Below, in pieces: positions 864 through 12,366 of a stretch of DNA of 17,234 bases. The position numbers and the translations under genes were made by a program. Origin of the DNA: Rubrobacter sp. Lineage in GTDB: Bacteria; Actinomycetota; Rubrobacteria; Rubrobacterales; Rubrobacteraceae. Every line of letters starts with the position of its first letter. The first letter of the stretch is position 1. A model generated the notes under the pieces. The model saw only the letters and a program-made list of their open reading frames with translations. It was not told the DNA's origin and did not search any database. Location: positions 1-17,234 of the forward strand of contig JACDFX010000005.1 in assembly GCA_013815575.1 (NCBI GenBank), given 5' to 3'.

Positions 864-1301
864 TCACTCTTCCCCGACGAGCGTGGTTAGCACCCCGACG
901 GCGACCGCCCAGGAGGCGACGTGCTCCACCATCAGCGTGACGACCCCGGCGACGGTCGCGCCCGGCATCGAGCCTGAGAACAGCATCAAGACGTCTGGCA
1001 CCAGCGAGATCAGGAGCACCACCAGCGCAACCCTCCGGAATAGCCGAACCGGACGCCTCGCGAAACGCAAGATCAGGCCGAAGGCCACCACCGCGCCCAA
1101 CATCCCCCAGACGGTGAACAATACCGTCGGCCCCACGCCCAGCGGCAGGAAGCCTTCCCCGATACCGAACACCGGTACCGCCACCGTTCGGATCAAAACG
1201 TTCGTCACGACCGCCACCGCGACCGCAACTACCCCAACCCGCGCTAACCGCCCCAACGAAACCCCACTACTCGCAACCCCGCCACCCGATAAAGCCGCCA
1301 C
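864..1301 (-). CDS. DUF6069-type small integral membrane protein
   Basis: Small membrane protein of unknown function. Four hydrophobic helices follow one another: about VAVAVAVVTNVLI, TVLFTVWGMLGAVVAFGLIL, VALVVLLISLVPDVLML and a C-terminal stretch ending AVGVLTTLV. A short basic RFARRPVRLFRR loop lies between helices 2 and 3. This arrangement matches what I know of the DUF6069 family, often found beside regulators in actinobacteria. The frame is open to an ATG at 1340, but that ATG has no ribosome binding site. The GTG at 1301 has AAAGGAGA with a 6-nt spacer, so I start there (145 aa). The predicted minus-strand promoter would then give a leader of about 54 nt. It is divergent from marR and probably controlled by it (inference). 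Confidence 0.75.
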   Translation of the reverse strand: MAALSGGGVASSGVSLGRLARVGVVAVAVAVVTNVLIRTVAVPVFGIGEGFLPLGVGPTVLFTVWGMLGAVVAFGLILRFARRPVRLFRRVALVVLLISLVPDVLMLFSGSMPGATVAGVVTLMVEHVASWAVAVGVLTTLVGEE

Positions 1302-1361
1302 CCCAGTCTCCTTTCCCGCCAAGCCGGATACCCGGTACATCCAACTATGATGTATCTATTC

Positions 1362-1390
1362 ACAATAACATTGACAACAATGAACGTCAA
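1362..1390 (-). promoter_or_regulatory. Predicted sigma70-like promoter for the DUF6069 gene
   Basis: On the minus strand TTGACG (1390-1385) lies 17 nt from TATTGT (1367-1362), which points at the DUF6069 gene. Its -35 is one arm of the TTGAC/GTCAA inverted repeat that also supplies the marR -35. Seen directly as a motif match; activity is inferred. Confidence 0.5.
1371..1390. promoter_or_regulatory. Inverted repeat TTGAC-N10-GTCAA, candidate MarR operator
   Basis: The arms TTGAC (1371-1375) and GTCAA (1386-1390) form a dyad whose two halves are the -35 boxes of the two divergent promoters. A dimeric MarR protein bound here would block both. A further GTCAA occurs at 1403-1407. The sequence shows the dyad; its role as operator is inference from the usual autoregulation of MarR genes. 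Confidence 0.45.
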
Positions 1391-1399
1391 CAGTAAGAT
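1371..1399 (+). promoter_or_regulatory. Predicted sigma70-like promoter for marR
   Basis: TTGACA (1371-1376), a 17-nt spacer and TAAGAT (1394-1399) form a near-consensus promoter in an unusually AT-rich stretch. Transcription would begin near 1406, directly at the AAAGGAG ribosome binding site (1406-1412), so the 5' leader is very short. Confidence 0.65.
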
Positions 1400-1420
1400 G
1401 CGGTCAAAGGAGTTGGTAGT

Positions 1421-1456
1421 ATGAGTTTCGTGCGGGGTGGAACGTGGAGACGGTGA
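1421..1456 (+). CDS. Possible 11-codon leader ORF overlapping the marR start
   Basis: An ATG at 1421 has the best ribosome binding site in the area (AAAGGAG, 8-nt spacer). It reads MSFVRGGTWRR and then meets TGA at 1454-1456, ten bases into marR in another frame. The marR GTG itself has only a weak G-rich site. Either this is a translational-coupling leader peptide, or a base error separates the true marR start from its body. Too short to have a recognisable family. Confidence 0.3.
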   Translation: MSFVRGGTWRR

Positions 1457-1914
1457 GCTCGGGGGCTGTGGGAGATCTCTCCCTGCGGCTGGTGGACGAG
1501 TTCGCCGCTTTTGGTCCGGCGTACATGAAGTGGGTCCGCTCGCGGATGCAGGAGCCGGGCGTAAGCTACGCGCGGATGCGGTTGCTCGGGGCTTTGCACT
1601 GCGGGGGGCCCAAGATCATGAGCGGCATCAGCGACGAGCTCGGGGTCACGCGACGTAACATCACCGCCCTGGTGGACGCCCTCGAAGAAGAGGGCCTCGT
1701 CAGGCGGCTCCCCCATCCCACCGACCGGCGGGCGACCGTCATAGAGCTGACCGACGAGGGCGCGCACACGATGGATACCCTGTACGACAAGCACCGCGGG
1801 GCGGTGGCGGAGCTATTCGTCGGGCTCTCCGAGGAGGACCGGCGCGAGCTCGTCCGGCTGCTTGGGCTCCTGCGTGAGGGATTGCGGCACGAGGGCGGCA
1901 CCTGCGGGGCCTGA
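1444..1914 (+). CDS. MarR-family winged-helix transcriptional regulator
   Basis: DNA-binding repressor of the MarR family, 156 aa, typical length. After an N-terminal helix come the winged-helix elements: ISDELGVTRRNITALVDALE is the helix-turn-helix with its recognition helix. LVRRLPHPTDRRATVIELTDEG is the classic wing, including the conserved DRR. A C-terminal helix (SEEDRRELVRLLGLLREGL) fits the dimerisation region. GTG at 1444 is the only sensible start in this frame. It probably represses itself and the divergent DUF6069 membrane protein through the dyad between their promoters. The ligand cannot be told from sequence. A short upstream ORF with a stronger ribosome binding site overlaps its start. 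Confidence 0.92.
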   Translation: METVSSGAVGDLSLRLVDEFAAFGPAYMKWVRSRMQEPGVSYARMRLLGALHCGGPKIMSGISDELGVTRRNITALVDALEEEGLVRRLPHPTDRRATVIELTDEGAHTMDTLYDKHRGAVAELFVGLSEEDRRELVRLLGLLREGLRHEGGTCGA

Positions 1915-1988
1915 TGAGTACGCCGTCCGGGGCATCCGGTCCCGGCATCCCTCTGTACGGGCGGGGCAGGTAGAGTAACCTACGCGCT

Positions 1989-2975
1989 ATGGATTACTCC
2001 GAGCAGCACCTGGACGTCCTGACCATCGGGGAGATGGTGGTGGACTTCATCTCTGCGGAGAAGACCGACACCCTGAGCAACGCGACCAGCTTTCGCCGTT
2101 ACCTCGGGGGGTCTCCGGCGAACATCGCCGTCTACGTCTCCAAGCTCGGGGGGCGGTCGGCGGTGATCGCCAAGACCGGCATCGGGGCGTTCGGGAAGTT
2201 CCTGAAGAGCGAGCTACAGCGACACGGTGTCGTTACCGATTATTTGCAGATGGACCACAGAACGAACACGACCGTGATCTTCGTCTCCTCAACCTCGACC
2301 ACCCCGGACTTCGAGGAGTTCCGCATCGGCGACTACCTGCTGGAGTCGAAGGAGATCCCCGAGGAGGCCATAGCCCGCGCGAAGGTCGTCCACTCCTCGA
2401 CCTTCGCCCTCTCGCGCGAGCCGTGCCGCTCGGCCGTGATAGAGGCTTTTCGTAAGGCGCAGGGCATGGGCAAGATCGTCTCTCTCGACCCGAACTACAG
2501 CCGGCGCGTGTGGCCTGATTACAAGGAGGCGCAGGGTGTGATCCGTGAGGCCTACAAGCACGTGAACGTGACCAAGCCCTCCGCCGACGACGCCCGCCGG
2601 GTCTTCGGCCCGGACTACGAGCCGGAGCAGTACATCGAGATGTTCCACGACCTCGGCCCCGAGACCGTCATCTTCACGATGGGCGGGGAGGGGAACCTGG
2701 TCTCCGAGAACGGCAAGATCACGGCCCACGTCCCAGCCCGGCCCGTCGACGTCGTCGACGCCACCGGCGCCGGTGACTCGTTCTGGGCAGGCTTTTTGAC
2801 CGCCCTCCTGGACGGAAACGAGGTCGAGCGCTCCGTCCTGTTCGCACGCGAGATCGTCGAGCGCAAGCTCACGACCAAGGGCCCCCTCCCCGCCGATATA
2901 GACCGCGATGAGATCTACGCCTGCGTGGACAATGAGATGGGCGGAAAAGAGAAAAAGAAACCGCAGGAAAGCTGA
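1989..2975 (+). CDS. PfkB-family carbohydrate kinase (fructokinase-like)
   Basis: ATP-dependent sugar kinase of the ribokinase/PfkB family, 328 aa, full length. It shows TIGEMVVDF at the start, then the first family signature around RRYLGGSPANIAVYVSKLGG, then SLDPNYSRRVWP. The second signature is DATGAGDSFWAGF, with anion-hole G260-A261-G262 and catalytic base D263 intact, so it should be active. The C-terminus ends in a lysine-rich tail. It is the first gene of a tight operon, 10 bp before a sucrose-phosphate-synthase-like transferase. Fructose is therefore the likely substrate by analogy with bacterial sucrose clusters that carry a fructokinase, but 5-dehydro-2-deoxygluconokinase-like or other specificities are not excluded. 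The ribosome binding site is weak and no clear promoter is seen in the 74 bp after marR. It is clearly homologous to the kinase domain of the fusion gene downstream. Confidence 0.9.
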   Translation: MDYSEQHLDVLTIGEMVVDFISAEKTDTLSNATSFRRYLGGSPANIAVYVSKLGGRSAVIAKTGIGAFGKFLKSELQRHGVVTDYLQMDHRTNTTVIFVSSTSTTPDFEEFRIGDYLLESKEIPEEAIARAKVVHSSTFALSREPCRSAVIEAFRKAQGMGKIVSLDPNYSRRVWPDYKEAQGVIREAYKHVNVTKPSADDARRVFGPDYEPEQYIEMFHDLGPETVIFTMGGEGNLVSENGKITAHVPARPVDVVDATGAGDSFWAGFLTALLDGNEVERSVLFAREIVERKLTTKGPLPADIDRDEIYACVDNEMGGKEKKKPQES

Positions 2976-2985
2976 GGACGGCCGG

Positions 2986-4476
2986 ATGCGCGTCGCATTC
3001 CTGAACCCGCAAGGGAACTTCGACCCGCACAACAGCTACCTGGCATCCCACCCGGACTTTGGCGGCCAACTCGTTTACGTCCGGGAGGTGGCCCGCCTGC
3101 TCGGCCAGATGGGCCACCACGCGGACATCCTGACCCGCCGCGTGACCGACCCGGACTGGCCGGAGTTCGAGGCCCCGACCGACGCCTATCCGGGCCACGA
3201 GAACGTACGGATACTCCGTATTCCCTGCGGCCCGGAGCGTTTCCTGCCTAAAGAGGATCTCTGGCCCTACTTGGGCGAGTGGGTGGAGGGCGTGGCCCGG
3301 CACTACCGGGAGGAGGGCTCGTGGCCTGATTTCTGGACCGGCCACTACGCGGACGGCGGCCTCGCGGCGGCGTTGTTGGAGGAGGCTTCGGGCGTCCCGT
3401 TCACCTTTACCGGACATTCGCTGGGCGCCTGGAAACTGGACCCCCTCCTGAAAGACGAGGACGACCTGCCGGCGGCGGACGCCCGGTACAACTTTGGGGC
3501 GAGGATCAGGGCAGAGCGCGTGGCGATGGCCCGCTCGGCCGCCATCGTCGCCAACAGCGAAGCCGAGCGCCGCGAGCAGTACGACCACCCGGCCTACCGC
3601 GGCGCGGTGGACGTCCGGGACGACGGGCGCTTCGTCGTGATCCCGCCCGGCGTCAACCTCGACATCTTCGATCCCGACGCGCGGGGCGAACAAGAGGAGG
3701 AGACGCGCGAGAGCATCCAGGCCGCCCACGAACGGGACATCGACCCCGAGAGGCGGGACTTGCCGGCCGTCATCGCCTGGAGCCGGCTCGACCCGAAGAA
3801 GAATCATCTGGCACTCGTAGAGGCCTTCGCCGGAAGCGACGAGCTCAGGGGGCAGGCTAACCTGGTCATGATCACGCGCGGCCTCGACGACCCTTTGCGC
3901 GAGCCCGGCGGCGCTTCGGAAGAGGAGCGGCCCATCCTGAACGCCCTGATCTCGGCCGTTGACCGCTCGGACCTCTGGGGCGGCATATCTGCCTTTGGCC
4001 TCTCGGGGCAGACGGCGCTTGCCGCCCTCTACCGCTGGGGCGCCGACACGGGCGGCGTCTTCTGCCTCCCCGCCGAGTACGAGCCCTTCGGCATGACGGT
4101 CGTGGAGGCGATGGCCGTCGGCCTCCCCGTGGTCGTCACGCAGAACGGCGGCCCGCAGGAGACGACCGACGGAGGTCAGGCCGGCCTCCTGGCAGACCCC
4201 CGGGATCCCGAAGACATCGCCGCGAAGCTGCTCCGCCTCCTCTCTGACCGCGAGACCTGGAAGGCCTACGCCGACCGGGCCCTCGAAAGGTCCCACGACC
4301 TCTACAACTGGCGCCGCACCGCAGAAGGCTACCTGCGGCTGGCGGAGGAGGCCCGGCGGGGAGAGCGGGGCGGGGACCTCTCTTTCCCGATCCCCGACTT
4401 CGCCCGGCAACCGGCCCCGGCAGAGCTCCCACGCCTGGACAACTGGGAGCCCCAACCAGAACATCCGGCAGGGTAA
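2986..4476 (+). CDS. GT4 glycosyltransferase, sucrose-phosphate-synthase-like
   Basis: Cytosolic retaining glycosyltransferase of family GT4 (GT-B fold), 496 aa. The N-terminal half has sucrose-phosphate synthase hallmarks: DFGGQLVYV (G26-G27-Q28), IPCGPERFLPKEDLWPYL, GHYADGG and FTGHSLGAWK. The C-terminal half has the donor-site pair R267/K272 in SRLDPKKN and the E-x7-E motif E366/E374 in EYEPFGMTVVEAM. It should transfer a hexose from a nucleotide sugar to a sugar phosphate, most simply giving sucrose 6-phosphate; the exact substrates are inferred. The ATG at 2986 is chosen because TGAGGA lies 7 nt upstream and its product starts exactly like the next paralogue (VAFxNPQGNFDP). A longer frame from 2908 overlaps the kinase and has a non-conserved basic extension. 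No phosphatase domain is attached. Likely one operon with the kinase and the fusion gene. Confidence 0.9.
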   Translation: MRVAFLNPQGNFDPHNSYLASHPDFGGQLVYVREVARLLGQMGHHADILTRRVTDPDWPEFEAPTDAYPGHENVRILRIPCGPERFLPKEDLWPYLGEWVEGVARHYREEGSWPDFWTGHYADGGLAAALLEEASGVPFTFTGHSLGAWKLDPLLKDEDDLPAADARYNFGARIRAERVAMARSAAIVANSEAERREQYDHPAYRGAVDVRDDGRFVVIPPGVNLDIFDPDARGEQEEETRESIQAAHERDIDPERRDLPAVIAWSRLDPKKNHLALVEAFAGSDELRGQANLVMITRGLDDPLREPGGASEEERPILNALISAVDRSDLWGGISAFGLSGQTALAALYRWGADTGGVFCLPAEYEPFGMTVVEAMAVGLPVVVTQNGGPQETTDGGQAGLLADPRDPEDIAAKLLRLLSDRETWKAYADRALERSHDLYNWRRTAEGYLRLAEEARRGERGGDLSFPIPDFARQPAPAELPRLDNWEPQPEHPAG

Positions 4477-4495
4477 CGACAGAGAGGATGGGCGG

Positions 4496-6961
4496 ATGCA
4501 CGTAGCGTTTATCAACCCGCAAGGCAACTTCGACCCCGAGGACTCCTACTGGACCGCCCACCCAGACTTCGGCGGTCAGCTCGTCTACGTCAAGGAGCTG
4601 GCGCTCGCGATGGGCAACCTCGGACACAAGGTGGATATCGTGACGCGGCAGATCATCGACCCGGCCTGGCCGGAGTTCGAAGCCCCGACCGACGCCTACC
4701 CCGAGGCCCCGAACGTGAGAGTTCTCCGAATACCCTGTGGCCCGGAGCGCTTCCTGCCCAAGGAGGATCTCTGGCTTTACCTTGGCACGGAGTTCGTCCC
4801 TAACCTGATCTCCTTTTACGAACGCGAGGGCTCCCTGCCAGACGCCGTTACCTCGCACTACGGTGACGGGGGTTTGTGCGCCGCGCTTTTCGAGGAGAGG
4901 ACCGGCATCCCGTTCAGCTTTACGGCCCACTCTCTTGGCGCCCAGAAGATGGACAAGATGGGCGTGCGCCGCCGCGACGTCGCGGAGACCGACGAGAAGT
5001 ACCACTTCTCCAAGCGCATCGTTGCCGAGCGGCTGGCGATGAACCGCTCGCGGGTCAACGTCACCAGCACGGGCCAGGAGCGCTTCGTTCAGTACACCCA
5101 CAACGCCTACCGCGGGGCCGTGGACCCGACCGACGGGGCCCGCTTCACGGCCGTACCCCCGGGCGTCGCCATGCACATCTTCGATAAGAACTCCCGCACG
5201 GATGACGAGGGCGCCGTCCGCGAGCACGTCCGGGCCTGCCTGGAGCGCGACCTCGCCCCCGACCGCCTGAGTCTGCCATGCGTCGTCGCCTCGAGCCGGC
5301 TCGACCCGAAAAAGAACCACATCTCGCTCGTCGAGGCCTTCGCCAGCAGCCCGACCCTGCGCGAGAGCGCGAACCTGGTCATCCTCACGGGCAACATGGA
5401 GAACCCGCTTGAGGACTACCGGGACGCCGACGACGGCGAGCGGGCCGTGCTAGACGGCATCATGGGTACGATAGACCGGGCGGAGATGCGGGGCATGGTC
5501 TCCATGTTCGCCATCAGGGGACAACGACGCCTCGCAGCCGCCTACCGCTTCCTCTCCGAACGTCGCTCGGTCTTCGCGCTCACGGCCAACTACGAGCCGT
5601 TCGGGCTCGCGCCGCTGGAGGCGCTGGCGGCGGGCCTGCCGGCGGTCGTCACGAAGAACGGGGGGCCGAGCGAGTCCCTGCGCGAGGGGGACGAAGAGTA
5701 CGGCGTCCTCGTCGACCCGGGCGACCCCGAGGAGGTCGCGGCGGGCCTCTATTCCCTCGCGGGCAACGCCGACCGCTGGCGCCGCTTCGCCGAAGCCGGC
5801 TACGGGCGCGTGCTGGCAAAGTACACCTGGGAGCGCACCGCGGAGGGATACCTGGACGCCATAACGGGCGCGGCAAACGATTCGGACACATCTCCGTATA
5901 ACTTCCCCTCGCCCAAGTCCAGGCTGGAGATTCCTGCGTACTTCACCGACCCTGGCTCGGATGACGGGGCTTCGCTCGAAACGCTAGACGGGTTGTACTT
6001 CGGGCTCGACGTGCTCGCGGTCGGGGAGTCGCTCGTTGACTTTATCTCGCACGAGTTCAGGATCTCGCTCAGGACCGCCGACAGGTTCTCGCGTTACCTT
6101 GGCGGCCAGCCGGCCAACGTCGCCGTCTACGTCGCCAAGCTCGGCGGTCGCTCCGCCGTGATCACAAAGGTCGGCACGGACTACTTCGGCGAGTTCGTCG
6201 AGGACCAGCTCGGCCGGCATGGTGTCTCCACGGAGGGCGTCCACCGCGCACCGGGGGAGCCGACCACGAGCGCCTTTGTTACCAGGACCGTCAACGTCCC
6301 GGACTTCCAGGTCAACCGGGGCGCCGACTCGCTGCTGAACATCAGGGAGGTCCCCGACGAGCTCGTCGAGCGGGCGCAGGTCGTCCACACTTCAGCCTTC
6401 GCCCTCTCGCGCGACCCGCAGCGGCTGGCCGTGAGGAGGGCCATGAGGCTCGGGGCCCGGCTCGGCAAGGTCGTCTCCCTCGACCCCAACTACGACCCGC
6501 GCGTCTGGCCAGACCGGGAGGAGGCCTGGGAGGTGCTGGCCGAAGTCCTACCCTACGTCACAATAGTCAAGCCCTCCCTCGAAGACGCCAGGCGCCTCTT
6601 CGACCCGAACATGAACGACGCCGCGCTCGAGGAGGCCTGCCTCGACGCCTTCCACGACCTCGGGGCGGGGGTCGTCGTGATCACGAGCAGCGGCGGCGTG
6701 GTCGTCGTCTCCGACGGCACCTCGGTGGAGCGGGTGGGTCCCCTTCCCAGGGTGGACATCCAGAGCGTCACCGGCGCCCGCGACGCCTTCTGGTCGGCGC
6801 TGCTCGTCGGGCACCTGGACGGCAAAGATTGGCCAACGAGCGTGCGCTTCGCCCACGAGGTCGCCGCGCTCAAGCTCGGGGTGGAGGGCCACGTGGAGCG
6901 CATGATCGACCGCGAGGCACTCTACCGGCGGCTCGAACAGGGCGCCGGCCAGAGGGCGTAG
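4496..6961 (+). CDS. Fusion: sucrose-phosphate-synthase-like GT4 transferase + PfkB kinase domain
   Basis: A two-enzyme fusion of 821 aa. Residues 1 to about 465 are a full GT4 transferase very like its upstream neighbour: DFGGQLVYVKEL (G26-G27-Q28), the PCGPERFLPKEDLW block, TAHSLGAQK, R268/K273 in SRLDPKKN and E367/E375 in YEPFGLAPLEAL. A linker of about 35 residues leads to a PfkB-type domain (about 503-815) with LAVGESLVDF, RYLGGQPANVAVYVAKLGG and SLDPNYDPRVWP. Its nucleotide-site motif reads SVTGARDAFW: the catalytic base D763 is kept, but the third residue of GAGD is R762 and the usual upstream Asp is Ser. The kinase half may be weakened or regulatory. In some known SPS enzymes this C-terminal place is taken by a phosphatase-like domain. 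The gene starts 19 bp after its neighbour with GAGAGG upstream, and ends the operon. Confidence 0.92.
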   Translation: MHVAFINPQGNFDPEDSYWTAHPDFGGQLVYVKELALAMGNLGHKVDIVTRQIIDPAWPEFEAPTDAYPEAPNVRVLRIPCGPERFLPKEDLWLYLGTEFVPNLISFYEREGSLPDAVTSHYGDGGLCAALFEERTGIPFSFTAHSLGAQKMDKMGVRRRDVAETDEKYHFSKRIVAERLAMNRSRVNVTSTGQERFVQYTHNAYRGAVDPTDGARFTAVPPGVAMHIFDKNSRTDDEGAVREHVRACLERDLAPDRLSLPCVVASSRLDPKKNHISLVEAFASSPTLRESANLVILTGNMENPLEDYRDADDGERAVLDGIMGTIDRAEMRGMVSMFAIRGQRRLAAAYRFLSERRSVFALTANYEPFGLAPLEALAAGLPAVVTKNGGPSESLREGDEEYGVLVDPGDPEEVAAGLYSLAGNADRWRRFAEAGYGRVLAKYTWERTAEGYLDAITGAANDSDTSPYNFPSPKSRLEIPAYFTDPGSDDGASLETLDGLYFGLDVLAVGESLVDFISHEFRISLRTADRFSRYLGGQPANVAVYVAKLGGRSAVITKVGTDYFGEFVEDQLGRHGVSTEGVHRAPGEPTTSAFVTRTVNVPDFQVNRGADSLLNIREVPDELVERAQVVHTSAFALSRDPQRLAVRRAMRLGARLGKVVSLDPNYDPRVWPDREEAWEVLAEVLPYVTIVKPSLEDARRLFDPNMNDAALEEACLDAFHDLGAGVVVITSSGGVVVVSDGTSVERVGPLPRVDIQSVTGARDAFWSALLVGHLDGKDWPTSVRFAHEVAALKLGVEGHVERMIDREALYRRLEQGAGQRA

Positions 6962-6964
6962 CCC

Positions 6965-7301
6965 GTGGAGAGGGAGAAGGGTTTCATCGCCCGGCAGAAG
7001 GAAGATTGAAAATCCCACCTCTTCCGCTCGCCCTTGCGGCGTCGGTGGGGGTTGGTGGGGTTGGGGATCTCGCTCGTCGTGATTCCTCACCGACGCCCCC
7101 CGAACGGGCCTCGCGGCCTTCCCGCCGTTCGGCGTCCTCGAGGGGATGGGCGCCCACTTCGGCTCCCTGGCTGAGCTCAAGCCCGAGGAGCAGGCGACGC
7201 TCGCCGGCATCCTGCGTGCCTGGGCCGGCCTCTTTGTGATCTGCAGTTTCGCGCTGATGGTGATCGGGGGCATCTTGGGTGGAGGTCCTCCGGTTCCTTA
7301 A
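6965..7301 (+). pseudogene. Possible decayed small membrane protein, spread over three frames
   Basis: This 421-bp gap (6962-7382) has no intact gene, but it reads like one broken protein. From GTG 6965 one frame gives VEREKGFIARQKED and then stops at 7007. The next frame continues KIPPLPLALAASVGVGGVG, a hydrophobic stretch. From 7083 to the TAA at 7299-7301 the third frame gives FLTDAPRTGLAAFPPFG, then GSLAELKPEEQATLAGILRA and a clear transmembrane stretch GLFVICSFALMVIGGILGG. Only the last part has an ATG (7146, 51 aa), and GAGGGG abuts it with no spacer. The second frame change falls in a G-run-rich segment (7041-7066), where indels or read errors are likely. A real 51-aa protein or chance open frames are alternatives. 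No strong promoter is seen before the next gene; CATAAT at 7341-7346 is a weak -10 candidate. Confidence 0.35.
7038..7097. repeat. Perfect 10-bp inverted repeat enclosing a G-run tract
   Basis: GGCGTCGGTG (7038-7047) and CACCGACGCC (7088-7097) are exact complements, 40 nt apart. The loop holds repeated GGGG runs separated by TT or TTGGT (to 7066), which could form a two-tier G-quadruplex on the plus strand. It lies between the kinase-transferase operon and the GalT-like gene. It could be a weak terminator or merely part of the decayed frame; the repeat itself is certain, the role is not. Confidence 0.5.
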
Positions 7302-7382
7302 GCGGGAAGCCTGGGGCGCACGGCCGCACCGCGGAGTCTGCATAATGTGCCGCGTCGCACCCGGGACCAGCAGAGGAGCAGG

Positions 7383-8471
7383 ATGACAGATTCCAGGATT
7401 ACAGACCTACCGGCCCTGATCAGAGGCCTCCCCCCCGAAGACCGCGCCCTCGCCGAACGCATCCTCGACACCTCCGCCACGACCGGGCGGCTCGACCCGC
7501 CGGAGGGGATGCGGCCCTGGATCGAAAAGTCCTTCGGCTCCGTGGAGGCCGTGACGGAGCAGCGCATCGTGAAGGTGACCAACAGGATCACCCTGGAAGG
7601 CACCCTCTTTAACGAGCTGCGGGCCTCCCGTCCCCTCGACACCGGCGTAAGCCTGGACCTCGACAGAGAGATAGCCGCCACGGAAGGGGACCCGTTCTGC
7701 CGCCCCGAGGAGGGCACCCCCGCCGACGTCTTCGGCCGCGTCAGGGGCAAACACGCCACGACCGCCTCCAACATCGCCAAGTACGACGGCTTCCACGGCG
7801 TCGTCGTCTTCGATGACCATAACCCCCTGCACCTCACCCCCGAGAAGGTCTCGGACTACGTCTCAGTCGGCCTGGAGTGGTGCCGCGAGGCCGTCGGGGC
7901 GGACCCTGAGGCGAAGTATCCGTTCCTTATGTGGAACTGCCTCTGGCGGGCCGGAGGCTCCATCATTCACGGCCACGCCCAGGTTACCGCCACCCGCGGC
8001 TCCCATTACCCGAAGGTCGAGCGCCTCCGCCGCGCCGCCGCCGGCTACCGCTCCGAACACGGCACGGATTATTTCGGGGACCTCCACAGGGTCCACGACG
8101 CTTTGGGCCTCGGCGTCCCGGCAGGGGAGGGCGTCAAGGCGTTCGCCAGCCTCACACCTGTGAAGGAGAAGGAGCTCGTGGTGATCGGCGCCGGCCCTGG
8201 GGACGCGGCCCTGCACCGGATCGTCGGCGCCCTGCTGCGTTCGTTCGTCGACGACCTCGGCGTCCGGGCCTTCAACGTCGCCTTCTACATGCCGCCGCTC
8301 GCGCCCGCCGAAGAAGACTGGGCGGGCTTCCCGACGGTCGTGCACGTCGTGGACCGGGGCGACCCGGCAAACCGCACCTCGGACATCGGGGCCATGGAGT
8401 TGTACGCGGCCCCGGTGGTCGCCTCGGACCCGTTCCGGGTCGCGGGGGCGCTGCGGGGGGCCATTGCGTAA
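7383..8471 (+). CDS. GalT/HIT-superfamily nucleotidyltransferase- or phosphorylase-like protein
   Basis: A 362-aa protein of the galactose-1-phosphate uridylyltransferase/HIT superfamily. The key sign is IIHGHAQV, an HxHxQ active-site motif (H196-G197-H198-A199-Q200) in which the second His would be the nucleophile that takes up a nucleotide. It follows a strand-rich block, FHGVVVFDDHNPLHLTPEKV and MWNCLWRAGGS, as expected for this fold. The likely chemistry is transfer of a nucleotidyl group between a sugar-1-phosphate and UTP, ADP or phosphate; the substrate is not predictable from sequence. I do not see the usual GalT cysteine pair. ATG 7383 is chosen for the GAGGAG 4 nt upstream; an in-frame GTG at 7347 adds 12 basic residues without a good site. 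Its place after the sugar kinase/transferase operon suggests a role in nucleotide-sugar supply or recycling. Confidence 0.75.
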   Translation: MTDSRITDLPALIRGLPPEDRALAERILDTSATTGRLDPPEGMRPWIEKSFGSVEAVTEQRIVKVTNRITLEGTLFNELRASRPLDTGVSLDLDREIAATEGDPFCRPEEGTPADVFGRVRGKHATTASNIAKYDGFHGVVVFDDHNPLHLTPEKVSDYVSVGLEWCREAVGADPEAKYPFLMWNCLWRAGGSIIHGHAQVTATRGSHYPKVERLRRAAAGYRSEHGTDYFGDLHRVHDALGLGVPAGEGVKAFASLTPVKEKELVVIGAGPGDAALHRIVGALLRSFVDDLGVRAFNVAFYMPPLAPAEEDWAGFPTVVHVVDRGDPANRTSDIGAMELYAAPVVASDPFRVAGALRGAIA

Positions 8472-8480
8472 TCCCCGGTA

Positions 8481-8548
8481 GCGAAAGGATCTCGCAAAGA
8501 TCATCCTTTTGCGCGATGCGGCTTCGGGCGCTTTGTCTCATCCTTTCG
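8481..8548. promoter_or_regulatory. One left arm with two alternative right arms (competing hairpins)
   Basis: GCGAAAGGAT (8481-8490) can pair with ATCCTTTTGC (8503-8512; one G-U) or with ATCCTTTCG (8540-8548; perfect over 9 bp). Only one pairing can form at a time, a layout seen in attenuators. No T-run follows either stem. It lies in the 159-bp gap between the GalT-like gene and the MBL-fold gene. It may be a terminator of the first gene or leader control of the second. Confidence 0.35.
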
Positions 8549-8630
8549 TGCTGTCTGAACGACGGAACCAACCGGCTGACGCGCCCCAACCCGGGCTACG
8601 CCGGAAAAAGGACGCACGAGGAGGAAGCGT

Positions 8631-9398
8631 ATGGCGCAGGTCGACGAGGTGGCGAAGGGTATCTACCGGATCTGCACGTTCGAGCCACAGTCCGGGCTGA
8701 ACTTCAACCAGTTCCTGATCGACGACGAGCACCCGGCCCTCATCCACACCGGCATGTTCCCGATGTACGACGACGTGCGCAAGGCCGTAGGAGAGGTCAT
8801 CGACCCCTCGCGTCTGCGCTACGTCGTTGTCCCGCACTTCGAGGCCGATGAGTGCGGGGGCATGGGCCGCTTCGTCGAGGGGGCGCCCGACGCCGTCCTG
8901 GCCTCTAGCGAGCTCGGGGCGATGGTCAACCTGTCGGGGTGGGACTACTCGGGCCCCGTGCGGGGCTTCCGCGACGGCGACACCCTGGAGCTCGGGGAGC
9001 ACACCTTACGCTTTATGGAGACCCCGCACGTCCACCACTGGGACTCGATGATGGTCTTCGAGGAGACCACAGAGAGCCTCTTCCCGGCGGACCTGTTCAT
9101 GCAACCGGGAGACCAGCCTCCCGTCGTGCGGGAGAACCTGGGGGGCGCAATGTGCCAGTTCGCCAGGGAGACGGGCATCTTCCCCGCGGAGTATCCGGTG
9201 CTCAAGGTGACGGACCGCGTCGAAGAGATAGACCCGAGCTGGATCCACCCGATGCATGGCGGCAGCGTACCACGCGAGTCGACACCCTACTACTTCCACG
9301 CCCTGCGCAACCAGCCCTTCGCCTTCGAGGGCAAGCTCTTCGGTCGCATGCTACCCGGGTTCTCCGTCCCGGCCGTGGAGGAGGGCAAGTGGACGTAG
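8631..9398 (+). CDS. MBL-fold, ODP/flavodiiron-like metalloprotein
   Basis: Stand-alone metallo-beta-lactamase-fold protein of 255 aa, resembling the diiron (ODP) domain of flavodiiron proteins but with no flavodoxin domain. Visible ligands in order are H69-x-E71-x-D73 (HFEADE), H136 in HHWDSM, D154 in FPADLF, and H206/H209 in HPMHGGS. In canonical flavodiiron proteins D73 is followed by His; here it is E74, so the second metal site differs. The fold and the HWxDSM-type motif favour an oxygen- or NO-handling diiron protein over a hydrolase, but activity is uncertain. The start is supported by AGGAGGAA 5 nt upstream of the ATG. It overlaps the next gene by 10 bp, so the two are probably translated together. 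Confidence 0.82.
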   Translation: MAQVDEVAKGIYRICTFEPQSGLNFNQFLIDDEHPALIHTGMFPMYDDVRKAVGEVIDPSRLRYVVVPHFEADECGGMGRFVEGAPDAVLASSELGAMVNLSGWDYSGPVRGFRDGDTLELGEHTLRFMETPHVHHWDSMMVFEETTESLFPADLFMQPGDQPPVVRENLGGAMCQFARETGIFPAEYPVLKVTDRVEEIDPSWIHPMHGGSVPRESTPYYFHALRNQPFAFEGKLFGRMLPGFSVPAVEEGKWT

Positions 9399-9998: not shown

Positions 9999-10976
9999 TT
10001 ACCAGTCTGGCACGGGCTGCTTCGGGCATCCGAGGCGCTCGGCGAACCACGCGAGAGTCTTTTCCAGCCCTTCGCGCGCTGGGACGCGAGGTTCCCAACT
10101 GAGGGACTCGCGGGCCCGGGTCAAGTCCGGGCAGCGGCGTTTGGGGTCGCCCGGCGGCAGTGGGGCGAAGGAGATGACGCCTTTATTGCCGGAGAGATCT
10201 ATGACCATTTCGGCGATCTCCAGCACGGTCATCTCGACAGGGTTGCCGAGGTTTACGGGGCGGGTCTCGGCGCTTTGCATCAGGCGCAGGAAGCCTTCGA
10301 TCAGGTCGTCCACGTACTGGATGCTCCTGGTCTGGGAACCGTCGCCGTGGACGACGAGGGGTTCGCCGGCGAGCGCGCGGCAGGCGAAGCTCGGGACGAC
10401 GCGCCCGTCGTTAGGACGCATGGCGGGGCCGTAGGTATTGAAGACGCGGGCAATGCGGGTGTCTACCTCATGGTGGCGATGGTAGGCCATGGTGATGGCC
10501 TCGGCGTAGCGCTTCGCCTCGTCGTAGACGCCGCGGATGCCGACCTGATCCACGTTGCCGCGGTAGTCCTCGTGTTGTGGGTGGACGAGCGGGTCGCCGT
10601 AGACCTCGGAGGAGGAGGCGAGCAGCAGGCGGGCGTCCCGGGCCTTCGCGAGGCCGAGGACGTTGTAGGTGCCGAGGGCGCCGGCTTTAAGGATCGGGAT
10701 GGGGATGCGCTCGAAGTCCGTGGGGCTCGCGGGGGAGGCGAGATGGTAGATCACATCCAGCTTTCCCCGGATCTCGATGGGCAGCGTGACGTCGTGGTCC
10801 AGGTAGTCGAAGTTCGGATCATCCGCGAAGTGGGCCACGTTTTCCAGCGAGCCCGTCCTCAGGTTGTCCGCGCAGACGACTCGGTAACCTTCCGCGAGCA
10901 GCCGTCCGCAAAGGTGGCTGCCGAGAAAGCCAGCACCACCCGTCACGAGCGCCCCTGGCCTCCGGATCTCAGTCAT
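9999..10976 (-). CDS. uxs: UDP-glucuronate decarboxylase (UDP-xylose synthase)
   Basis: Extended-SDR sugar-nucleotide enzyme of 325 aa that would convert UDP-glucuronate to UDP-xylose. It has the Rossmann motif [12 protein letters not shown] at the N-terminus. The active-site residues are S123-E124 in SSSEVYGDP and Y151/K155 in YDEAKRYAE, then [19 protein letters not shown] and [19 protein letters not shown]. The [15 protein letters not shown] segment is characteristic of the UXS group rather than of GalE or RmlB. Its ATG overlaps the end of the UDP-glucose dehydrogenase gene by 8 bp, and that enzyme makes its substrate, which strongly supports the assignment. A UDP-apiose/xylose synthase-type or 4-epimerase function is a less likely alternative. 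Confidence 0.88.
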
Positions 10977-12366
10977 GCCCGAAGCCCCTGTAGAGTAGGC
11001 CGGCCTCGCGGGCGGCGGCGGGGTCGATGGCGTTGCGGCCGTCGATCAGGAGCTTGGGTTCCTGCATGAGCGAAGCCACGCGGCGGAGGTCGAGGTTGCG
11101 CACCTCCGACCACTCCGTCACCACGACGGCGGCGTGCGCACCTTCGAGCGCCTCGTGGGGGTCGAAGGCCACCAGTAGGTCCGGCGCCCTCCGGGCGGCT
11201 GCCTTGGCGGCCACGGGATCGTAGCCGACCACCAGCGCGCCAAGCGAGCAGAGCTCCGCCGCTATACCGAGGCTCGGGGCCTCACGCAGGTCGTCGGTGT
11301 TCGGCTTGAAGGCGAGACCTAAGAGCGCCACCCGCTTGCCGTCCAGCGTGCCGAGGTCCCGTTGGAGCTTAGAGACGACGAGCTCGCGCCGACGGTCGTT
11401 CACGGCGACCGTGGCATCAAGGAGCCTCGTCTCGTGTTGGTACTCGCGGGCGATGGAGCGGAGGGCGGCGACGTCTTTGGGCAGGCAGGAGCCGCCCCAG
11501 CCGATCCCGGCGTTCAGGAAACGCGGGCCGATGCGCCCGTCGAGGCCGATCCCGGTCGCCACGCTCCCCACGTCCGCCCCCGTCAGTTCGCAGAGGTCGG
11601 AGATCTCGTTGATAAAGCTGACCTTTGTCGCGAGAAAGGCGTTCGCCGCGTACTTGATCATCTCCGCGCTCGCGAGATCCGTCACCACGAACGGTACGGT
11701 CACCCTCGGGCGAGGGTCCATCTCCACAGGAAAGCTCTGCTCGATCACGGGCCCGTACAGCTCCCGCATGACGTCCACAACCCACGCCTCCTCCGCTCCC
11801 ACCACGATCCTGTCCGGAAACAACGAATCGTAGACGGCGCTCCCCTCGCGCAAGAACTCCGGGTTGGAGGCGACGCCGAACCGGACCTCCTCCGGGTGAT
11901 GCACCCCTCCGACCTCGTCGGCCCCCTCCCGGATGAGCACGGAGACGTAGTCGCCGCTACCCACCGGCACCGTGCTCTTGTTGGCGACCACGAGCGGTCG
12001 CGCGCGCCGGGTGGATTCGGCCAGAGCCCGCCCGATGCTGCGGGCAACGGACGAGACGTTTGAGAGGTCGGCCGCGCCGCCCTCTCCCTGCGGTGTGTCT
12101 ACGGCGATAAAGACGACGTTGGCACCACCCACTGCCGCATCGAACCCTTCGGTAAAGGAGAGCCTTCCCGCGCCCACCCCGCGCGCGACCAACTCTTCCA
12201 GGCCCGGTTCGTAGACCGGCATCCTGCCCTGCTGCAGCCCCGCGACGCGTTCCCGGTCCTTGTCGACACACGTCACCCGATGCCCGACCCGCGCCAGGCT
12301 CGCCCCCGTCACGAGCCCCACGTACCCGGCCCCAACGACCGCCACGTCAGCCACCCGCGACAACAC
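10969..12366 (-). CDS. ugd: UDP-glucose 6-dehydrogenase
   Basis: Oxidises UDP-glucose to UDP-glucuronate with two NAD+. The 465-aa length is usual for bacterial enzymes. The NAD motif is VVGAGYVGL (G12-x-G14-xx-G17), followed by [24 protein letters not shown] and [12 protein letters not shown]. The catalytic cysteine is C294 in [13 protein letters not shown]. The C-terminal half carries [20 protein letters not shown], the UDP-binding signature of the family. GTG 12366 is the start, with TTG as the next codon and a GGAAGG upstream; a GTG four codons later is possible. It is the first gene of the pair with the UDP-glucuronate decarboxylase. No promoter is obvious in the 105-bp gap before it. 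Confidence 0.95.

Follow-up and report, generated by a model that had tools for sequence, protein, structure and literature searches.

We propose that a three-gene operon in the 17,234-nucleotide stretch of Rubrobacter DNA analysed here (the window) leads to sucrose 6-phosphate or a phospho-disaccharide much like it, and that the PfkB domain fused to one of its two sucrose-phosphate synthase (SPS)-like transferases now serves as a non-catalytic sensor or dock. We give this explanation as a whole a probability of about 0.58. It builds on computed homology, the fusion itself, the loss of a kinase motif, purifying selection and tree positions, from which we infer the substrates, the product, the lost kinase activity and a part for K2 in regulation or docking. 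The features concerned are:

1371..1399, + strand: sigma-70-like promoter match, TTGACA-17-TAAGAT, upstream of the MarR gene (consensus scan only)
1444..1914, + strand: MarR-type regulator gene (PF01047, 44.5 bits), ending 74 bp upstream of K1
1989..2975, + strand: K1, PfkB-type kinase; ATG at 1989, stop at 2973-2975, 328 aa
2986..4476, + strand: G1, GT4 transferase, SPS-like; ATG at 2986, stop at 4474-4476, 496 aa
4496..6961, + strand: G2K2, SPS-type GT4 with a degenerate PfkB domain; ATG at 4496, 821 aa
4496..5953, + strand: GT4 (SPS-type) domain of G2K2 (G2), about residues 1-486
6005..6943, + strand: PfkB domain of G2K2 (K2), about residues 504-816; predicted pseudokinase
6773..6784, + strand: GARD in place of the PfkB anion-hole motif GAGD, G2K2 residues 760-763
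7389..8471, + strand: GalT-like nucleotidyltransferase with an HGHAQ motif, downstream of the operon; start codon uncertain

The sequence-only reading had described a three-gene operon with K1, G1 and G2K2 in that order, and this layout is confirmed, with gaps of 10 bp between K1 and G1 and 19 bp between G1 and G2K2. The start of G1 is preceded by GAGGA and that of G2K2 by GAGAGGA.

A probable fructokinase and an SPS-type transferase

Judged by its sequence, K1 is probably a working fructokinase. It consists of one PfkB domain (187.1 bits in the profile search, against a cut-off of 25.8), carries both the GG motif and an intact GAGD expected of a PfkB fructokinase, and groups on the kinase tree with separate fructokinase-type genes of Chloroflexota. 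Its nearest solved relative is the fructokinase of Halothermothrix orenii (3hj6, E 2.5e-76), a match that bears out the PfkB enzyme as one of fructokinase type. K1 and K2 are both full-length homologues of this enzyme and of the Vibrio cholerae fructokinase, VcFRK, as the available part of its report describes it (PMC6240065); the motif reads GAGD in K1 and GARD in K2, K2 alone is joined to a transferase, and both lack an Arg aligned to VcFRK R176.

Both transferases match H. orenii SPS (HoSPS; 2r60) far beyond chance, as their earlier assignment to SPS-type GT4 enzymes had implied. For G2 this is the nearest solved relative (E 5.1e-160) and also the best fold match of the GT4 part of the G2K2 model; the VIA-align rows span mainly model residues 1-462, so that the absence of a PfkB chain among them is uninformative on K2. 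On the transferase tree, G2 lies in a 26-row clade with HoSPS at a support of 99/100. It has the catalytic His, the E-X7-E motif, the donor-site Arg and Lys and the basic acceptor-phosphate residues by which an SPS is recognised, and the residues that align with the catalytic set described for TeSPS (PMC7264703) are retained. Among fused proteins (the best 120 of 2101 matches), H151, K96, K157, R180, R270, K274, E369 and E377 (HoSPS numbering) are kept in 120/120; this list and the list of G1 relatives used below each contain proteins of the window itself and near copies (P0001, P0121-P0128), and their rows are not independent. Scores against the NCBIfam SPS equivalog TIGR02472 are below its cut-off of 576 bits for both G1 (298) and G2 (275). 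Since HoSPS itself scores 322 bits, this cut-off also excludes a solved SPS; an SPS of the two-domain type scores 655. The solved HoSPS chain differs from G2 in being a GT4 unit of 499 residues, with no counterpart to the fused PfkB domain.

These assignments make likely the route already suggested, in which a PfkB enzyme makes the acceptor and a GT4 enzyme glycosylates it, here from fructose 6-phosphate to a phospho-disaccharide. K1 would convert fructose to fructose 6-phosphate, and the GT4 part of G2K2 would then transfer a glycosyl group onto it, most likely glucose from UDP-glucose. A channelled or heteromeric form of this route is possible.

G1 and the identity of the product

G1 and G2 are not equivalent copies, as read from their sequences. 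HoSPS is also the best sequence match of G1 (E 6.8e-150), but the transferase tree, which supports an SPS placement for G2, excludes G1 from the clade that HoSPS and G2 share. The condition named in the first reading for its refutation, that both transferases group with a different proven acceptor, did not arise for G2. The AU test rejects a recent copying of G2 as the origin of G1 (p 0.0076). The pocket of G1 is changed at the acceptor site: among the best 120 of 2684 G1 relatives, a list in which one entry (P0080) is a G1/G2 chimera with K2 attached, HoSPS Q156 is replaced by W in 111/120 and R179 by A in 109/120. The same 120 proteins keep H151, K96, K157, R180, R270, E369 and E377 throughout and K274 in 116, and 108 have an N-terminal GGQ, the other 12 rows being incomplete. 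G1 is, moreover, absent at 6/14 Rubrobacteraceae loci, and a doubled transferase function is not supported. We propose an accessory role for G1, as an SPS-like enzyme whose acceptor pocket is modified.

A competing account, which we consider less probable but would not dismiss lightly, is that the donor of G1, and perhaps of G2, is a different one, or its acceptor is not fructose 6-phosphate, and that the operon yields a different or mixed disaccharide. Mannosylfructose-phosphate synthase, for instance, takes its mannosyl group from GDP-mannose. The position of G1 on the tree and its two acceptor-site replacements favour such a shift, whereas the retention of the phosphate ligands K96 and R180, together with K157, in every one of the 120 relatives speaks against it, as does the fact that SPS is the solved enzyme nearest to G1 (504 vs 130 bits).

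The phosphatase search also bears on this account, in its favour and against the sucrose 6-phosphate route: no dedicated sucrose-phosphate phosphatase (SPP) was found in the source genome, which is 83% complete. Its PF05116 hit, on contig C6, was rejected as a true SPP, scoring as a Cof-type HAD protein (158.6 bits, cut-off 137) and far below the SPP_plant-cyano cut-off (20.1 bits vs 183.65). PF05116 matches occur in 15/16 Rubrobacteraceae genomes checked, whether the fusion is present or absent, the match in the source genome being the only one typed; in other genomes that bear the fusion, matches are similarly weak or there are none. Under the sucrose 6-phosphate route, which we prefer, the sugar would be released by a general HAD phosphatase encoded elsewhere. 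The cyanobacterial SPS-SPP two-domain enzymes, in the portion of the literature available on them (PMC4390843), resemble G2K2 in carrying a second, enzyme-like domain at the C-terminus of an SPS, but that domain is a phosphatase acting after SPS, whereas the partner of G2 is a homologue of a kinase, which would precede SPS in the pathway.

A conserved, probable pseudokinase domain

K2 is recognisably a PfkB domain (PF00294, 166.8 bits, G2K2 residues 505-798; E 8.6e-53 against 3hj6), in which replacement of the anion-hole glycine has turned GAGD into GARD. The change is typical of the fused proteins: the best 120 of 2101 matches comprise 117 with VTGARD, 2 with VTGASD, 1 with VTGGRD and 0 with GAGD. 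In an alignment of 42 separate and 17 fused kinases (L031 counted apart, L034 left out), the glycine at K1 position 262 is kept in 42/42 separate kinases and is R in 15/17 fused ones, and glycine 232 (K1 numbering) is S in 17/17 fused kinases. A pattern count of the motif found GAGD in 37 separate rows and its absence in 15 fused rows; it missed rows L031 and L034, both of which read GAGD by eye. An approximate version of the PROSITE pfkB pattern matches only 5/42 separate kinases and so was not used. The missing GAGD of the second PfkB domain had gone unmentioned in the first reading of the sequence.

K2 is nevertheless under purifying selection, with dN/dS of 0.09-0.23 compared with 0.10-0.30 for K1 (six comparisons each). 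Many of its columns are invariant across 40 aligned fused proteins, including the catalytic Asp, D763, and several sugar-binding residues are kept, among them the GG/N sugar-binding motif. Since it lacks GAGD yet is under purifying selection, K2 looks like a conserved pseudokinase that would have lost its kinase activity. Weak residual kinase activity is possible, because Asp763 and several sugar-binding residues are retained. The earlier statement that both functions are doubled is thus only partly supported: two PfkB and two GT4 domains are present, but only one kinase looks catalytic, because loss of the anion-hole glycine is lineage-wide in the fused PfkB domain.

It is conceivable that all four domains, kinases and transferases alike, are active and form two parallel or heteromeric channels from fructose to a phospho-disaccharide, K2 working with a phosphate site altered by Arg762 in place of the glycine. 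The retained catalytic Asp and GG/N motif, the purifying selection and the presence of GAGD in one fused K2 lineage would fit such an arrangement. We consider it unlikely, as G262R and G232S, both close to fixation in the fused lineage, fall in the loops that bind phosphate and nucleotide, and as six of the 14 operons lack G1. The structure model of G2K2 is poor in the N-terminal part of K2 (block means mostly 32-55, about residues 500-620), and with the lid so poorly modelled neither lid contacts nor the placement of Arg762 are readable from it.

Slightly less likely still is an inert K2 that serves only for solubility or as a linker and neither regulates nor docks. Loss of GAGD fits a loss of function, although nothing points to this role specifically, and a dN/dS similar to that of K1 and the many invariant columns are hard to reconcile with it. 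That a domain lacking part of its kinase machinery is well conserved suggests that K2 has come to control or tether the transferase.

We therefore return to K2 as a sensor or dock, and propose that it would be a former fructokinase no longer capable of efficient phosphate transfer. It could sense fructose or fructose 6-phosphate and so control the synthase. Alternatively, it could dock the working K1 through lid-to-lid contacts, as in PfkB fructokinase dimers; the available part of the V. cholerae study describes dimerisation via the lid domains (PMC6240065). More tentatively, we suggest that G2K2 is an SPS controlled or scaffolded by its built-in pseudokinase, whose catalysis may have been lost after the fusion, phosphorylation being left to a separate fructokinase, and whose fold may have been re-used as a sensor of these sugars or a dock for the active kinase.

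Pseudoenzyme control is well established for protein kinases. To our knowledge, it has rarely been shown for small-molecule kinases in metabolic pathways. Plant FLN1 and FLN2 belong to the plastid polymerase complex. Like K2, they are fructokinase homologues, and kinase activity was not detected in either according to the accessible part of the report (PMC5405513). They differ from K2 in being chloroplast proteins that are not fused to a sugar enzyme. If our proposal is correct, K2 would be a PfkB-fold metabolic pseudokinase whose target is the enzyme that follows in the same pathway. In source databases the fused protein is named sucrose-phosphate synthase or PfkB kinase, and it should not be counted as bifunctional on such a name alone.

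Origin and spread of the fusion

Relatives of the fusion occur in 13 other Rubrobacteraceae genomes, where they are cut by contig ends in G008 and G009, and also in Chloroflexota; at most two candidates were scored per genome in these searches. Recurrence in many genomes rejects an assembly artefact. Rubrobacter tropicus also has a fused protein (P0135). A separate K1 accompanies the fusion in 14/14 Rubrobacteraceae genomes with a recognised fusion, a count that leaves out G017, which has a K2 fragment only and no K1. No further fusion was found in the order of G421 (2 genomes).

The 12 fused K2 rows of the kinase tree form one clade, and loss of GAGD requires one change on the tree when the SGGD of G757 is scored as lost. 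GAGD thus appears to have been lost once, in a fused lineage common to Rubrobacteraceae and Chloroflexota. An origin of K1 and K2 by local duplication is rejected (p 5e-130). The fused K2 of genome G757 stands beside a separate kinase and, with its SGGD, may still work.

The Chloroflexota genome G398 holds a fused-lineage K2 with GAGD (L031), and no separate kinase relative was found in that genome at E values to 1e-20. Three observations lead us to count L031 as fused: the kinase-tree clade in which it falls, the start of a fused gene on another contig of G398, and a 10-base stretch common to both contig ends, read by eye. Exact-overlap comparison of these ends gave 0, one of them carrying an adapter-like tail, and the unbroken fused reading in G398, across the two contigs, is therefore putative. 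One fused domain has relatives in intact (L031) and in degenerate form, and comparing them directly could test whether catalysis was lost and a new role gained.

The Chloroflexota loci that were read usually have an SPS gene adjoining a fructokinase-type gene, which suggests that the pairing is old. In the literature searched, to which subscription papers were mostly external, no SPS-fructokinase fusion is reported. The spsA-sppA-frkA-amsA operon of Synechococcus PCC 7002 likewise places sucrose-synthesis and fructokinase genes together, but as separate genes and with a dedicated phosphatase and an amylosucrase; no fusion is described in the available part of that source (PMC11046441).

Neighbouring features

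In the consensus scan of positions 1300-8800, promoter-like sites number 3, compared with 0.4 on average in shuffles. The match at 1371..1399 is possibly the operon promoter, and the MarR-type gene is possibly the first gene of the operon; a MarR relative also lies within ~2 kb upstream of K1 at L009, L010, L011, L015, L017 and L110. The whole window has no Rfam match at gathering scores.

The GalT-like protein has no sequence match in the PDB up to E 10, and its model matches GalT (1hxp, E 6.7e-9) and ADP-glucose phosphorylase (2h39, E 8.9e-9). Its gene follows the fused gene by at most 50 bp at L012, L013, L015, L016, L017 and L029. As an operon-specific partner it was rejected, with matches in 35/39 family genomes compared with 14 for the fusion (15 including the G017 fragment); it is a common gene of the family, probably with no particular tie to the operon.

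Operon layout and the fused kinase domain

The sequence-only reading had placed a kinase, a sucrose-phosphate synthase (SPS)-like transferase and a transferase-kinase fusion in one three-gene operon, and this arrangement holds, with gaps of 10 and 19 bp.

1444-1914: MarR-type gene, 74 bp upstream of K1
1989-2975: K1, separate PfkB-type kinase
2986-4476: G1, SPS-like GT4 transferase
4496-6961: G2K2, GT4 transferase (G2) fused to a PfkB domain (K2)

A GAGGA stretch precedes the G1 start and a GAGAGGA stretch the G2K2 start; a promoter-like site lies 5' of the MarR-type gene. Six relatives carry a gene related to this regulator no more than about 2 kb ahead of K1.

PMC5405513 and PMC6240065 place the anion hole and catalytic base of PfkB kinases in the GAGD region. 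This motif reads GAGD in K1 and GARD in K2. The best 120 fused proteins listed carry VTGARD (117), VTGASD (2) or VTGGRD (1), and GAGD in none. In a wider alignment, the motif glycine is present in 42/42 separate kinases and Arg in 15/17 fused rows; Arg is lacking in L020 (GGSD) and in the Chloroflexota genome G757 (SGGD), whose motif may still be functional. Ser also replaces another glycine, at K1 position 232, in 17/17 fused rows, and it is already found there in the Thermoflexales row L031. At the Asp ahead of the motif (position 260 of Vibrio cholerae fructokinase), the fused sequences of the multiple alignment have Ser or Asn, apart from L031, which keeps Asp, and L019, which is truncated; Asp is likewise present in G757. 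The catalytic Asp763 is retained in K2. Because its dN/dS against six relatives is 0.09-0.23 (K1, 0.10-0.30; G1, 0.17-0.25; G2, 0.13-0.20), K2 is not decaying.

History of the fusion

A 39-row kinase tree unites the 12 fused K2 domains in one clade (100/99), with L031, which carries GAGD, as the earliest branch and the other 11 united at 99/97; a single change suffices for the GAGD loss. In the sequence available for the L031 genome (G398), a search at E up to 1e-20 recovered no second kinase relative. The K1 rows cluster with separate Chloroflexota kinases, and an origin of K1 and K2 by local duplication is rejected on this tree. A separate K1 adjoins the fusion in 14/14 Rubrobacteraceae genomes where the fusion was recognised; a fifteenth, G017, yielded a K2 fragment only. 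The simplest history begins with the fusion of an SPS-fructokinase gene pair, in a genome that already had or later regained a separate kinase; the phosphate site of the fused kinase was then lost a single time, while the domain remained under selection.

On the Rubrobacter contig L018, the fused gene comes first and a K1-type gene (2683-3504) after it, as in G421 and G757, two of the Chloroflexota fusions; the K2 of L018 is the first branch among Rubrobacteraceae K2 domains.

Within the class of G398, 64/396 genomes match at E up to 1e-40, and the commonest layout among loci read is an SPS gene with an adjoining separate kinase gene. Only four Chloroflexota genomes among these loci have the fusion (G421, G757, G396 and G398). 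The window's own phylum gives matches in 15/396 genomes at E up to 1e-90, 14 in the window's family and one an unfused protein. A TreS-type gene precedes the SPS-kinase pair in the Chloroflexota genome G634 (873 bits, cut-off 678). In L100, from a Chloroflexota genome, the TreS-type gene (884-2542) is directly 5' of the pair, an order that possibly links trehalose and sucrose metabolism. In L099 and L032, the surroundings of the pair include genes resembling sugar ABC permeases, with scores short of the model cut-offs.

The two transferases

Catalytic residues of the TRANSFERASES were located by carrying the cyanobacterial SPS set (His158, Glu331, Glu339, Arg105, Arg178, Arg249 and Arg253, from PMC7264703) into Halothermothrix orenii SPS numbering through the printed alignment and a multiple alignment. 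His151, Lys96, Lys157, Arg180, Arg270, Glu369 and Glu377 are retained in 120/120 of the best listed fused proteins and in 120/120 of the best listed G1 relatives, and Lys274 in 120/120 and 116/120, respectively. With this set retained, G1 and G2 both look like active transferases. The acceptor-site neighbourhood is altered in the best 120 G1 relatives listed: position 156 is Trp in 111 and position 179 Ala in 109, and Lys160 is retained in one, with Arg in 13. Given these changes beside the acceptor site, G1 may differ in acceptor preference.

In a transferase tree of 36 rows, H. orenii SPS sides with G2 (26/36 rows, 99/100) and G1 falls outside; a tree constrained to place G1 with the Rubrobacteraceae G2 rows fails the AU test (p 0.0076). 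G1 is accessory, since only 8/14 fusion loci carry it. The database protein P0080 (841 aa) matches G1 in its first part and G2 plus K2 in its last, a chimera fused to K2 that is either natural or an assembly product; recombination between neighbouring transferase genes is possible. In two Chloroflexota, the (inferred) fused gene has a distant GT4 gene after it, a partner other than G1: in L020 at 2515-3678 and in L031 at 980-2149.

Proposed mechanism

We propose that K1 would convert fructose to fructose 6-phosphate, to which G2 would transfer glucose, giving sucrose 6-phosphate, and that K2 would serve as a non-catalytic sensor or dock. K2 could retain fructose binding or pair with K1; both roles are plausible because, in V. 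cholerae fructokinase, the lid mediates dimerisation and the enzyme closes over its fructose (PMC6240065). Sequence, motif, selection and tree positions are established by computation; the activities, the product and the part played by K2 are inferred. A dedicated sucrose-phosphate phosphatase was not found in the window's own genome (82.95% complete), where the PF05116 match is a Cof-type HAD protein. PF05116 matches above the low family cut-off occur in 19/22 genomes, with and without the fusion, mostly at 29-38 bits, and are missing in G007, G396 and G480. We found no report of an SPS-fructokinase fusion in the accessible text of the literature searched. The component parts are of known kinds; what is new is a lineage-wide, inactivation-type change in a sugar kinase fused to SPS.

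Flanking genes

7389-8471, +: GalT-like nucleotidyltransferase with an HGHAQ motif
8631-9398, +: ODP-family metallo-beta-lactamase-fold protein
9999-12366, -: NAD-dependent epimerase/dehydratase gene overlapping a UDP-glucose dehydrogenase-type gene

Neither Pfam nor NCBIfam gives a match for the GalT-like protein at E 0.001; its modelled fold resembles GalT and ADP-glucose phosphorylase. The gene is matched in 35/39 Rubrobacteraceae genomes; matches, where named, are mostly "hypothetical protein". The epimerase/dehydratase gene possibly encodes a UDP-xylose synthase, and the products of this overlapping pair would share the UDP-glucose pool with an SPS. The ODP-family protein is weakly similar to flavorubredoxin models, and its gene is followed by a YjgF/RidA-like gene.
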